NCBI GenBank assembly: GCA_029260555.1
Contig: JAJDCZ010000052.1
Location: 62,001-126,000 of the forward strand
Direction of reading: 5' to 3'
Source: Phycisphaerales bacterium
GTDB lineage: Bacteria; Planctomycetota; Phycisphaerae; Phycisphaerales; UBA1924
DNA length: 64,000 nucleotides
Both the position numbers and the translations under genes were made by a program. Shown piece after piece: positions 53,206 to 57,192 of this stretch. Positions within the stretch are counted from its first letter, which is position 1, and each line of letters opens with the position of its first letter. The notes under the pieces are model-generated. The model did no database searches. It saw nothing but the letters and a program-made list of their open reading frames with translations, and was not told the origin of the DNA.

Positions 53206-56200
53206 ATGCCCAGCCAACTACCCAAAAAGTACATCCCCGAAGATCACGAAGCCCGCATCCGCCAGCAATGGGATGATGCTCAAGCCTTCCACGCTGATCC
53301 CTCCCGCGTGCTCTCGGGTGAAAAACCGCCCTACTGCATCCTCATACCGCCTCCCAATGTCACCGCTGCCCTGCACCTGGGTCATGCTCTGAATAACACG
53401 CTCCAGGATGTACTCATTCGCTCCCACCGCATGATGGGCTACGAAACCCTCTGGATGCCAGGCACCGACCACGCAGGCATCGCCACCCAGACCGTCGTAG
53501 ACAAACGCCTCCAGGCTGAAGGCAAGCCCGCACTGGCAGACTACAAACGCATCGAAGTAAAAGACAGCACAGGCCGCGACCAGTTCATCGCCATCGTCCA
53601 GTCCTGGAAAGACGAATACGAACAACAAATCACCGATCAACTCATCGCGATGGGTTGTTCATGCGACTTTGCCCGTCAGCGCTTCACCATGGACCCCCTC
53701 TGTGCCCGGGCTGTCCGCCAAGCCTTCTTCCAGCTCTTCAAAGCCGACCTGATCTATCGTGGCAAACGCCTTGTCAACTGGGACCCCGCCACCCAGACTG
53801 CCCTCTCAGATGATGAAGTCGAAAATGTTGAAATCCAAGGCCACTTCTACTACCTCCGCTACCCACTCGTCCACAAACCCACCAACCCCGATGATCCCTT
53901 TGACACCGCTCCCGTCACCTGGGATGAACTGGCCACCAGAGGCTACCCCGGCGCCGCTTCCCATGCCCCCAACGAACCCGCATGGGTCACCGTCGCTACC
54001 ACGCGCCCCGAAACCTACCTCGGCGACACCGCTGTCGCGATCAACCCAACAGATCATCGCGCCAAACCTCTCAAAAGTCTCTTTGTTCAGCTGCCACTCG
54101 TGGGTCGTGTCATTCCCATCATCGAAGATTCCTATGTCGTGCTCCCTGATCCCGATTCCAGCGACACCAAAGCAAAGTTCGCCACAGGCTTCCTCAAAGT
54201 CACTCCCGCCCACGACCCCAACGACTGGGAACTGGGCCAACGACACAACCTCCCCATCATCAACATCATGGCTCCCGATGCCTCCATCTCCGCAGACCAT
54301 GGCTGGAATGATTACTCCCCCCACAACGGTGCCCATGTCTTCATTGGTAAATCCCGCGAAGAAGCCCGCAAACTCGTCATCCGCGAGTTCGAAGCACGCC
54401 AGGTCGGGCCAGATTCTTCTGAAACCCTCCTCGAAGACATCCAGCCCCACACCCACAGCGTCGGCCACTCCTACCGCAGCCATGTCGCCATCGAACCCTA
54501 CCTCAGCGATCAGTGGTATGTCAAAGTTACCGACGACCGACTCAAAGGCACCGCCCAACGCGCCCTCAACCTTGATCAGCGAACACAAGCCTCACTCAAC
54601 CAATGGCCAGAATCACACCCAAACAATCCATCTCTTAACGAGCCGCGACCGTCAGGGAGCGGTCTTCATTCCACCAACAAACCTCAACCTTCAGAAAACC
54701 AACCCCTATCTCTTAACGAGCCGCGACCGTCAGGGAGCAGTCTTCATTCCACCAACGAACCTTCATCGTCAGAAACCGGTCCCCGAATCTCCTACCTCAT
54801 CACCTTCACTACCTATGGAACATGGTTACATGGAAACACCAAAGGCTCCGCAGACCGAAACCACAATCTGCCCGGCACCCCATACCTCCCACCAGACACT
54901 GCACAAGAACTCAAAGAAGAACAAACGCTCAAGCACGACCCCGTTGAACTCGACCAGGTCCATCGAAGCACCGTTGCTGATGCGATCCGCGAAGTCTGCG
55001 AGCATCGCAACTGGGAACTGCACGCCTGTAATGTTCGTTCAAATCATGTCCATGTCGTGGTGAGTGCTGACGCGACACCCGAGCGCGTGATGAACGATCT
55101 CAAGTCCTACGCAACACGGGCAATGCGTAACTTGAGCCAGCCCATCACAGCAGAACATGTCTGGACCCGCCACGGCTCAACGCGATACCTCAACACACCC
55201 AACGCATTCAATCACGCAATCAAGTACACACTCGAAGAACAAGGTGAAGACCTTGGCGGTGTCATCCGAGGCACAACAGAAGTTTCAAGACCGCTCCCTC
55301 ACGGTCGCGGCTCGTTCAGAGAAGACTCTCTCAACGATAGCTCCCTCTCGTTCCACCCCCCCCGTTATGCCAAAACCTACGAATCATGGCACGACAACCT
55401 CCAGAACTGGTGCATCAGTAGGCAACTCTGGTGGGGACACAGAATCCCTGTATGGGCTCTTGATAACGAAAACCACAATCATCATCCGGATGTTGAAGCA
55501 GAACTAAGAACAGAAGATTGGGAGCAAACAAAATTCGCCCACTGGGAGAAACAAAATCGCATCAGCATACATCGAAGAGGTAACGCTGGCGGTGTCGATC
55601 GCAATAAATTATTTAGTGGAATTGGTTTCAAACACCATCTGTTTATTTGTGTTCGAGATATCAATGATTCAGAGATCATAGATTTCATTGAGCAAAACAA
55701 CACCTTCGTCAGAGACCCCGATGTCCTCGACACCTGGTTCTCCTCCGCCCTCTGGCCTCTAAGTACACTTGGTTGGCCCGATGTTGATTCTGCAGCAAAA
55801 ATCACCGGGCTTGACGACTTCCCCCAGATGCTCAAAGCCTTCAACCCCTCTACTGTCCTTTGCACAGCTCGTGAGATCATCACGCTCTGGGTTTCTCGCA
55901 TGGTCATGTTCAACCGGTTCTTCCTGGGTGAGCAAGAAAGTACACATCCCACAGAACGAGCCGCGACCGTGAGGGAGCGGTCTTCCTCTTCCACGAATCA
56001 ATCGACAGAACTCCAAGGCCCCGCCCCATTCCGCGATGTCTTCATCCACGCCATGATCCAGGATGGTCAAGGCCGAAAGATGTCCAAATCCCTCGGCAAC
56101 GGCGTAGACCCGCGCGACATCATCCACTCCCATGGCACCGACGCCATGCGCTACACACTCTGCCAGATGACCACCCAAACCCAGGATGTCCGCCTGCCCG

Positions 56201-57192
56201 TCTCCACCGACCCGGAATCCGGCAAAAACACCAGCCCCAAGTTCGACATCGGCAGAAACTTCTGCAACAAACTCTGGAACGCTGCCCGCTTCACACTCAG
56301 CATCCTCACCAACGAAAACAACACCAGCGAAAAAGCTGCTGACCAAACAGCCCTTATAGATCAATGGATGGCTTCTCGCGTTCGCCGTACATCCCAGCGT
56401 GTGCGCGATCATCTCAGCGCCTACAACTTCAACCAGATTTCCGAAGAGCTGTACGACCTGCTCTGGCGCGATTTCTGCGACTGGTACCTCGAAGGCATCA
56501 AATCAACCGTCAGTTCCAACCCTAACCAGCGCGCAATGCTCCGCACCGTGCTCGAAACCATCATCCGACTGCTCCACCCCATCTGCCCCTTCATCACCGA
56601 AGCCATCCATGAACAACTCCGCCAGATCCCCGTTGAAGATGTGCCCGGCTTCACACTTGGCTCTTCTAATCTGCTGGCAACCGCCCCCTGGCCCGAACTT
56701 GCAGATACATTAGACAACCCCCAGGCAGAATCAGCCTTCATCCGACTCCAGGAACTGGTCACAGCCATACGCGAAGTCCGCGCACAACATCAGGTTCCTC
56801 CCAAGCGCAAAATATCACTGCATGTTTCCAGCGTCAGTGCCCAGGAAATCCAGGCTGCTGATCCCGTTGCCCAACTGCTCGCTGGTCTTGATCAGGTCAC
56901 CACCGAGTCCCCCCCTTCAGATGCAGTAGCCTTCGTGTTTGATTCCGCTCAACTCCACTTGAGCAATCTCGCTGATCAGATCGATGCCAACGCAGAGCGT
57001 CAAAGGCTCGACAGCAAGATCCAGGATCTTGATCAATCCATCAGTGCATTAGAAGCCCGCCTTGCCAATCCGGGTTATTCTCAGCGCGCCCCTGCTCATC
57101 TTGTCGAACAAACCCGTGAACAACTCGCCCGTGCCCAGGCCGATCGCAAAACCGCTGTAACAACCCTCGAATCCCTCGAGACCCCAGCGTGA
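53206..57192 (+). CDS. valS: Valyl-tRNA synthetase carrying an internal REP-associated tyrosine transposase domain
   Basis: One frame of 1328 codons; bacterial ValRS usually has about 880-950. It charges tRNA-Val. Core motifs are complete: HIGH-type HLGH (57-60), WMPGTDHAGIATQ, the editing domain (about 255-430), WCISRQLWWGHRIP (735-748), DVLDTWFSSALWPLSTLGWP, KMSKS (958-962) and the C-terminal coiled coil. Extra parts: residues 466-714 hold two 26-residue REP-encoded repeats, a Y1 transposase (about 527-690; HUH at 614-616 in SNHVHVVVS, candidate Tyr674 in AIKYTLEEQG) and an inverted REP. Residues 751-834 are long and A+T-rich in codons. Residues 911-932 are encoded by a fourth REP. The frame is kept throughout, so the synthetase is probably functional. 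Confidence 0.95.
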   Translation: MPSQLPKKYIPEDHEARIRQQWDDAQAFHADPSRVLSGEKPPYCILIPPPNVTAALHLGHALNNTLQDVLIRSHRMMGYETLWMPGTDHAGIATQTVVDKRLQAEGKPALADYKRIEVKDSTGRDQFIAIVQSWKDEYEQQITDQLIAMGCSCDFARQRFTMDPLCARAVRQAFFQLFKADLIYRGKRLVNWDPATQTALSDDEVENVEIQGHFYYLRYPLVHKPTNPDDPFDTAPVTWDELATRGYPGAASHAPNEPAWVTVATTRPETYLGDTAVAINPTDHRAKPLKSLFVQLPLVGRVIPIIEDSYVVLPDPDSSDTKAKFATGFLKVTPAHDPNDWELGQRHNLPIINIMAPDASISADHGWNDYSPHNGAHVFIGKSREEARKLVIREFEARQVGPDSSETLLEDIQPHTHSVGHSYRSHVAIEPYLSDQWYVKVTDDRLKGTAQRALNLDQRTQASLNQWPESHPNNPSLNEPRPSGSGLHSTNKPQPSENQPLSLNEPRPSGSSLHSTNEPSSSETGPRISYLITFTTYGTWLHGNTKGSADRNHNLPGTPYLPPDTAQELKEEQTLKHDPVELDQVHRSTVADAIREVCEHRNWELHACNVRSNHVHVVVSADATPERVMNDLKSYATRAMRNLSQPITAEHVWTRHGSTRYLNTPNAFNHAIKYTLEEQGEDLGGVIRGTTEVSRPLPHGRGSFREDSLNDSSLSFHPPRYAKTYESWHDNLQNWCISRQLWWGHRIPVWALDNENHNHHPDVEAELRTEDWEQTKFAHWEKQNRISIHRRGNAGGVDRNKLFSGIGFKHHLFICVRDINDSEIIDFIEQNNTFVRDPDVLDTWFSSALWPLSTLGWPDVDSAAKITGLDDFPQMLKAFNPSTVLCTAREIITLWVSRMVMFNRFFLGEQESTHPTERAATVRERSSSSTNQSTELQGPAPFRDVFIHAMIQDGQGRKMSKSLGNGVDPRDIIHSHGTDAMRYTLCQMTTQTQDVRLPVSTDPESGKNTSPKFDIGRNFCNKLWNAARFTLSILTNENNTSEKAADQTALIDQWMASRVRRTSQRVRDHLSAYNFNQISEELYDLLWRDFCDWYLEGIKSTVSSNPNQRAMLRTVLETIIRLLHPICPFITEAIHEQLRQIPVEDVPGFTLGSSNLLATAPWPELADTLDNPQAESAFIRLQELVTAIREVRAQHQVPPKRKISLHVSSVSAQEIQAADPVAQLLAGLDQVTTESPPSDAVAFVFDSAQLHLSNLADQIDANAERQRLDSKIQDLDQSISALEARLANPGYSQRAPAHLVEQTREQLARAQADRKTAVTTLESLETPA
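54631..54678 (+). repeat. REP copy 1 in valS (direct)
   Basis: Contains AACGAGCCGCGACCGTCAGG and continues GAGCGGTCTTCATTCCACC. Palindromic core GACCG...CGGTC with an eight-base loop, as in REP elements associated with RAYT transposases. Translated in frame as NEPRPSGSGLHSTN. First half of a 78-bp tandem duplication. Confidence 0.88.
54709..54756 (+). repeat. REP copy 2 in valS (direct)
   Basis: Identical to copy 1 over 48 bases except one G-to-A change (GAGCAGTC for GAGCGGTC), which breaks one pair of the REP stem. Spacing of 78 bases from copy 1 keeps the frame (26 codons). Confidence 0.88.
54784..55275 (+). mobile_element. RAYT-like (Y1/HUH) transposase domain embedded in the valS frame
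   Basis: Encodes residues 527-690 of the synthetase. The beginning ISYLITFTTYGTWLHGNTKG, the middle WELHACNVRSNHVHVVVSA with the HUH histidines, VMNDLKSYATRAMR, HVWTRHGSTRYL and the end AIKYTLEEQGE with a tyrosine match stand-alone Y1/REP-associated tyrosine transposases of planctomycetes, which are about this long. It has no start or stop codon of its own; translation depends on valS. Flanked by REP sequences: two direct on the left, one inverted on the right. Confidence 0.88.
55289..55316 (-). repeat. REP copy 3 in valS (inverted)
   Basis: Reverse complement of the REP core (GACCGCTCCCTCACGGTCGC, then GGCTCGTT), right of the transposase domain. Read in frame as RPLPHGRGSF. Together with copies 1 and 2 it frames the transposase in the REP - RAYT - inverted REP order. 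Confidence 0.88.
55955..55984 (+). repeat. REP copy 4 in valS (direct, separate site)
   Basis: AACGAGCCGCGACCGTGAGG followed by GAGCGGTCTT. Lies 640 bp right of copy 3, in the segment between FNRFFLGEQ and FRDVFIHAMIQDG. Translated in a different frame of the REP than copies 1-3, as ERAATVRERSS. Confidence 0.87.

Follow-up and report, generated by a model that had tools for sequence, protein, structure and literature searches.

The window analysed here is a 64,000-nucleotide stretch of DNA from a Phycisphaerales bacterium. On its forward strand, at 53206..57192, it carries valS with a nested unit, a reading frame of 1328 residues without a stop or frameshift that profile and structure alignment identified as valyl-tRNA synthetase (ValRS). 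The product scored 772 bits against TIGR00422 (cut-off 612) and also passed the cut-off of NF004349, and the T. thermophilus ValRS structure 1GAX aligned with it on either side of an insert (within residues 4-355 and 710-1308). This insert lies between the ValRS editing domain and the strand preceding WCISRQLWW. It consists, in frame, of a REP, a second REP, a Y1/HUH RAYT domain and an inverted REP, and covers about residues 477-705. An earlier note on this DNA had described a complete HUH domain with its REP ends in frame in ValRS, with the synthetase motifs intact on both sides, and the open frame, the profile matches, the 1GAX alignment and the location of three REPs bear this out. The site that it proposed, a variable loop after the editing domain, also proved right, as empty ValRS of relatives align there; occupied and empty loops are both present among relatives, at one place. 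The limits that it gave, residues 466-714, have to be narrowed slightly, because comparison with empty relatives puts the start after 'WPES..' (about residue 472-477) and the end at about residue 705.

The RAYT domain, a TnpAY1 class 3-like HUH domain by profiles, motif alignment and a structure model, occupies residues 527-690 (54784..55275, forward strand). Y1_Tnp (PF01797) matched residues 586-655 in the ValRS frame with an E-value of 4e-9. In the motif alignment, His614 and His616 of the HUH motif His-Val-His (residues 614-616, 55045..55053, forward) and the candidate catalytic tyrosine Tyr674 in the motif YTLEEQ (55225..55227, forward), both already singled out in the earlier note, fall on the catalytic positions known from other RAYTs. 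The domain therefore has the HUH motif, the single downstream tyrosine and the Y1 fold of a RAYT (TnpA_REP), and the unit has flanking REPs with many genomic copies. Against NF047646 (REP_Tyr_transpos) the domain scored 26.5-28.9 bits, below the curated cut-off of 80, and so we placed it in the TnpAY1/RAYT superfamily and not in that equivalog; it also stayed below the IS200 equivalog cut-off (35.6-37.3 bits against 55). TnpAY1 class 3, reported mainly from Planctomycetes, is marked by an NHVH plus Y----Q signature and a CnGA foot (PMC6006769). The window domain has NHVH and YTLEEQ (Y----Q), a class call made by signature alone, and the foot tetranucleotides of the unit are CTGA ahead of the 3' REP and CTTA ahead of the 5' REP.

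A sequence search of solved structures with the window RAYT returned weak matches to transposases and nothing stronger. When the RAYT was modelled alone with AlphaFold (186 aa, 7 sequences, mean pLDDT 67.7), the best Foldseek match was TnpA_REP 4ER8, with Z scores of 10-12.6 to Y1 transposases. In a model of residues 1-1010 of the window protein, the synthetase was folded (against 1GAX: Z 27.7, rmsd 5.9, 548 residues) and the HUH core was confident, with blocks at pLDDT 86-92, and the REP-encoded tethers at 474-525 and 690-707 were of low confidence (disordered). The fold prediction that had been suggested for the fusion thus shows both ValRS and the HUH domain as folded, with disordered tethers joining them. 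Such a passenger domain on flexible tethers could explain how ValRS tolerates the RAYT.

Pattern searches checked against shuffled sequence located four REPs in the valS frame, at 54637-54667, 54715-54745, 55287-55317 and 55954-55984, where none is expected by chance (0 of 100 shuffles); the limits given below are slightly wider. REP 1 (type A, 54631..54667, forward), read as NEPRPSGSG, forms the 5' end of the nested unit; REP 2 (type A, 54709..54745, forward) is the second direct copy in a 77-nt repeat; and REP 3 (55287..55322, reverse), an inverted copy read as RPLPHGRGSF, closes the unit. The arms of the inverted REPs are 94% complementary over 36 nt. Both 5' REPs carry the C variant (TCA); in their frame, the G variant would read as the stop codon TGA. 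REP 4 (55954..55985, forward) stands alone and in frame in a second variable loop of ValRS (ERAATVRERSS), outside the nested unit, indicating that ValRS takes up lone REPs too. A second highly variable ValRS region was seen at about 55470-55790, after WWGHRIPVW; it diverges even between sister species (L078 and L082), in which the remaining ValRS is more than 90% identical. In two other nested RAYTs (L086:6255-6869 and L075:6360-6965), a type A REP lies in frame within the RAYT itself, just before WTRHGSTRYL, and reads KRAATVRERS and QRAATVRERT, respectively. Type A REPs fold weakly, in line with the 'atypical' REP structures described for class 3 (PMC6006769).

The nested unit is far from confined to the window. 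In all, a nested RAYT was found in 45 distinct ValRS, always at the one loop, and these RAYTs comprise at least four types with type-specific REP borders: type A (n=16, class 3-like, marker YLITFTTYGTWLHGD), type B (n=24, marker LPHWQxGGSTYFVTFR), type C (n=4) and type D (n=1). Among 212 sampled genomes of the order with the ValRS site, a nested RAYT was verified by sequence in 30, spanning families f1, f2, f4, f5 and f6. Loop lengths were bimodal, at 47-150 aa versus about 246-335 aa. More than 20 of 80 related ValRS loci in named genomes had a loop of about 245-300 residues, all with a RAYT, and empty loops measured 47-103. Within genus g84 alone the loop holds type A, type B, type D or is empty, the last shown by an unbroken match. 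Other material also occurs at this site: the loop of L141 contains a REP-like peptide pair (LRARSASEDG and SLARASGS) without a RAYT, resembling a REPIN, and three loci of family f6 (L194, L195, L196) have medium-sized non-RAYT inserts in loops of 135-150 aa.

RAYTs are nested in other enzymes as well. With a type B (class-2-like) query against 81 relatives at E<=1e-10, 24 of 27 matches lay in frame in ValRS, LeuRS, RdgB (HAM1) or MiaA, and the other 3 read as free RAYTs. A type C query against 221 genomes gave 36 matches, about 31 of them in the same four hosts, with several host calls carried over from earlier sequences and one match left unread. Sampling across the phylum widened the range of hosts to FabZ (six loci), PurH, an Eco57I-type methylase, a DUF1156 methylase and a helicase. 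In LeuRS, MiaA, RdgB and PurH, Pfam placed the host family in two stretches or flanking Y1_Tnp; in the remaining hosts, the host family and Y1_Tnp were found in one frame. In one genome (G025), ValRS, LeuRS and RdgB each have a nested RAYT. The nesting reported in the earlier note is thus real, and its apparent uniqueness did not stand, as nesting recurs across the order and the phylum in many hosts. Two cases differ in form: the LeuRS RAYT of L265 (G048) sits at a later site, before GVDLYVGG, with the other LeuRS cases at the start of the editing domain, and a MoeA case (L307), read by eye alone, is an N-terminal fusion. RAYT matches in long frames such as L155-L163 looked like fusions but were rejected and left uncounted, since they read as free RAYTs with a frame that extends across unrelated sequence.

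We found that the nested copies are well conserved. By alignment, the first catalytic His was present in 70 of 70 copies and the second His and the Tyr in 69 of 70 each; catalytic His and Tyr were both kept in 68 of 70, with a residue lost in L080 and L081. In 56 of the 70, the sequences on the two sides of the domain contain an exact inverted repeat of 14-38 nt, compared with 1 in shuffled controls, and the REPs of types B-D are clean hairpins with GTAG or GTGG feet facing outward. Pairwise dN/dS of the nested RAYTs was mostly 0.1-0.35, like that of the flanking ValRS, with dS near saturation in many pairs. Judged by these ratios, the nested RAYTs are under purifying selection, and they are very probably catalytically competent. 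An own ATG within 30 codons upstream was found in 1 of 16 nested type A RAYTs versus 13 of 18 free ones (Fisher p 1e-4), suggesting that nested type A RAYTs can hardly be made alone, in agreement with the earlier proposal that the transposase is made solely as part of ValRS. The deficit of own starts was less clear in types B-D.

The history of the RAYTs was then compared with that of their hosts. Host labels changed twice on the type A RAYT tree (13.2 in shuffled labels) and 14 times on the tree of types B-D (40.6 when shuffled), with FabZ, RdgB and LeuRS-MiaA groups. On a ValRS tree of 106 tips, built with the loop left out, occupied and empty states changed 33 times, compared with 34.3 in shuffled labels. 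For type A, RAYT distances showed no correlation with ValRS distances (Mantel r 0.04, p 0.41); for type B the correlation was weak (r 0.29, p 0.008), and part of the history may be vertical there. By these measures the two histories are decoupled, fully for type A and largely for type B. One ancient insertion inherited vertically is ruled out by the scattered occupancy and the type A Mantel result. Single pairs of loci point the same way. L078 and L082 have ValRS 91-96% identical outside the second variable region and RAYTs only 47% identical; between L072 and L078, RAYT identity is 84% and ValRS stretches are 48-83% identical (most 65-83%); and the sister species L185 (type D) and L189 (type B) contain different units, with closely similar bases on either side. 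This amounts to exchange or re-acquisition at one fixed place, and the loop very often gains, loses or exchanges its occupant. One free type A RAYT (L043, genome G010) branches within the ValRS-nested clade with weak support, and the ValRS loop of that genome is without a RAYT; L043 is possibly an escape from ValRS.

Type A REPs occur throughout the window's genome (64-82 copies; control pattern 0). The ValRS copy is the sole close RAYT of its type found in this genome and in G074, and a search of the window's genome gave no close second copy of its RAYT. At least 24 REP-A copies were found in 7 of 7 genomes with a ValRS-nested type A RAYT versus 5 of 74 others (Fisher p 2e-7, kinship ignored), and fewer copies were present where all type A RAYTs of a genome are free (p 2e-4, kinship ignored). 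This is a correlation. REP-A copies are numerous in four genomes that lack a nested type A RAYT (G063, G064, G008, G013), which shows that the REPs are not strictly dependent on it, and strict dependence was rejected for this reason.

We consider that the findings are best explained by a complete REPtron (REP - RAYT - inverted REP) that is translated within an essential enzyme and folds there as a passenger domain, in a surface loop permissive to insertion, a reading that as a whole we regard as likely. ValRS and RAYT would form one polypeptide with flexible REP-encoded tethers, both halves would be functional, and the embedded RAYT would serve the genome's REP population. That the fusion is translated seems close to certain. 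Units would be transferred horizontally from one valS allele to another and settle in the same loop again, through the action of the RAYT or through recombination at the conserved flanks. Horizontal re-occupation of the ValRS loop is highly probable; for catalysis of entry by the RAYT itself the case falls a little short of even, and homing driven by the transposase is a weak inference, as ordinary recombination between valS alleles would yield much of the same pattern. Such a life history would resemble that of inteins but involve no splicing of protein or RNA. We also considered a class of homing elements in which the RAYT targets one loop of an essential enzyme, is always translated within it, drives the genome's REPs and re-enters empty or occupied sites between species, an intein cycle run by a Y1 transposase without splicing. 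This can be put forward tentatively, and we think it somewhat improbable.

The same scatter might arise if REPtrons inserted everywhere and essential genes kept only the in-frame cases in permissive loops, with loss and valS recombination doing the rest and with neither site preference nor benefit to the element. The occupied sites are variable loops, REP-only and non-RAYT inserts are found at the ValRS loop too (L141, L194-L196), and lone REPs in ORFs are known in other phyla (PMC3733652). Neutral tolerance of this kind is nevertheless unlikely, given that the class-2-like RAYTs of the 81 relatives are concentrated in just four housekeeping genes with few free or in dispensable genes, that RAYT lineages cluster by host and that nested copies keep their active sites. 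It is very unlikely that the RAYT has been domesticated, that is, kept because it is useful to the synthetase or the cell, for example in nucleic-acid binding or regulation. Purifying selection, presence in one enzyme across an order and the REP counts that go with nested type A RAYTs would suit such a role; the unrelated hosts (LeuRS, RdgB, FabZ, PurH, MiaA, methylases), the mixture of types and empty loops within one genus, and unit ends that stay element-like do not. Removal of the insert by protein or RNA splicing or by proteolysis before the enzyme functions, suggested by the size of the insert in an essential enzyme, as with inteins, is scarcely credible. Scans of the fusion against Pfam and NCBIfam at E 1e-3 gave no intein/Hint family. 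Likewise, Rfam gave no intron family at E<=1 and the ORF is continuous through both ends, ruling out a self-splicing intron or IStron; the linkers, REPs included, are in frame and stop-free in the cases read, and the modelled ValRS fold appears intact with the insert present. Two doubts concerned the data themselves. A second valS, named earlier as a possible refutation, was rejected because a search of the window's genome (92.9% complete) found one valS and no other. An assembly or binning artefact, including the joining of separate frames that had been raised as an objection, can practically be dismissed even though nearly all named genomes are MAGs, because dozens of independent assemblies have precise in-frame junctions and three single-contig genomes with a nested ValRS RAYT (G074, G102, G108) show the same arrangement, which argues against an assembly join.

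The REPtron reading can be set against known systems. Inteins with homing endonucleases are site-specific, lie in frame in essential conserved proteins and show patchy occupancy that is decoupled from host phylogeny. Nested RAYTs share all of this, but the unit has a Y1 transposase instead of a homing endonuclease, occupies a variable surface loop and not an active site, and has no splicing domain that we could find, and the host fold apparently tolerates it. We file it as a REPtron with an intein-like habitat, not as an intein. The earlier comparison with inteins as elements protected from loss holds for the essential host and the specific site and fails for stable retention, given the 33 changes on the ValRS tree. 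REPtrons and RAYTs of TnpAY1 classes 2 and 3 have in common with the nested unit the HUH motif with a single Tyr, inverted REPs, GTAG/GTGG or CnGA-like feet and many genomic REPs. The RAYTs described so far are free-standing genes that have a start codon of their own and, in REPtrons, inverted REPs on their flanks; the 2018 TnpAY1 survey set aside unexpectedly long fusion proteins (PMC6006769). In contrast, the unit here forms part of the reading frame of essential enzymes, and type A mostly has no start of its own. Rickettsia palindromic elements and intragenic REPs lie in frame in protein genes, including those of tRNA synthetases (PMC3733652), but they are short non-coding repeats, whereas a whole transposase gene with both ends is found here. 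IS200/IS605 TnpA shares the Y1 HUH fold; no IS ends or tnpB were seen in the nested unit, which has REPs instead and scores below the IS200 equivalog cut-off.

In agreement with the earlier statement that no such case is described, a search confined to the open-access literature gave no account of RAYTs that are nested in frame within essential enzymes. RAYTs, REPtrons, REPs within ORFs and the Planctomycetes class 3 were known already; nesting in essential enzymes appears to be new. Together the cases amount to a series of naturally occurring insertions of a domain into tRNA synthetases. In G074 and in the window's genome no RAYT of that type other than the nested copy was found, so mobilisation of REPs by RAYTs becomes testable there. 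A transposase would be carried as a folded passenger in essential enzymes, repeatedly and across a phylum, and the persistence of a single-copy RAYT may come from its expression and retention being tied to an essential gene.
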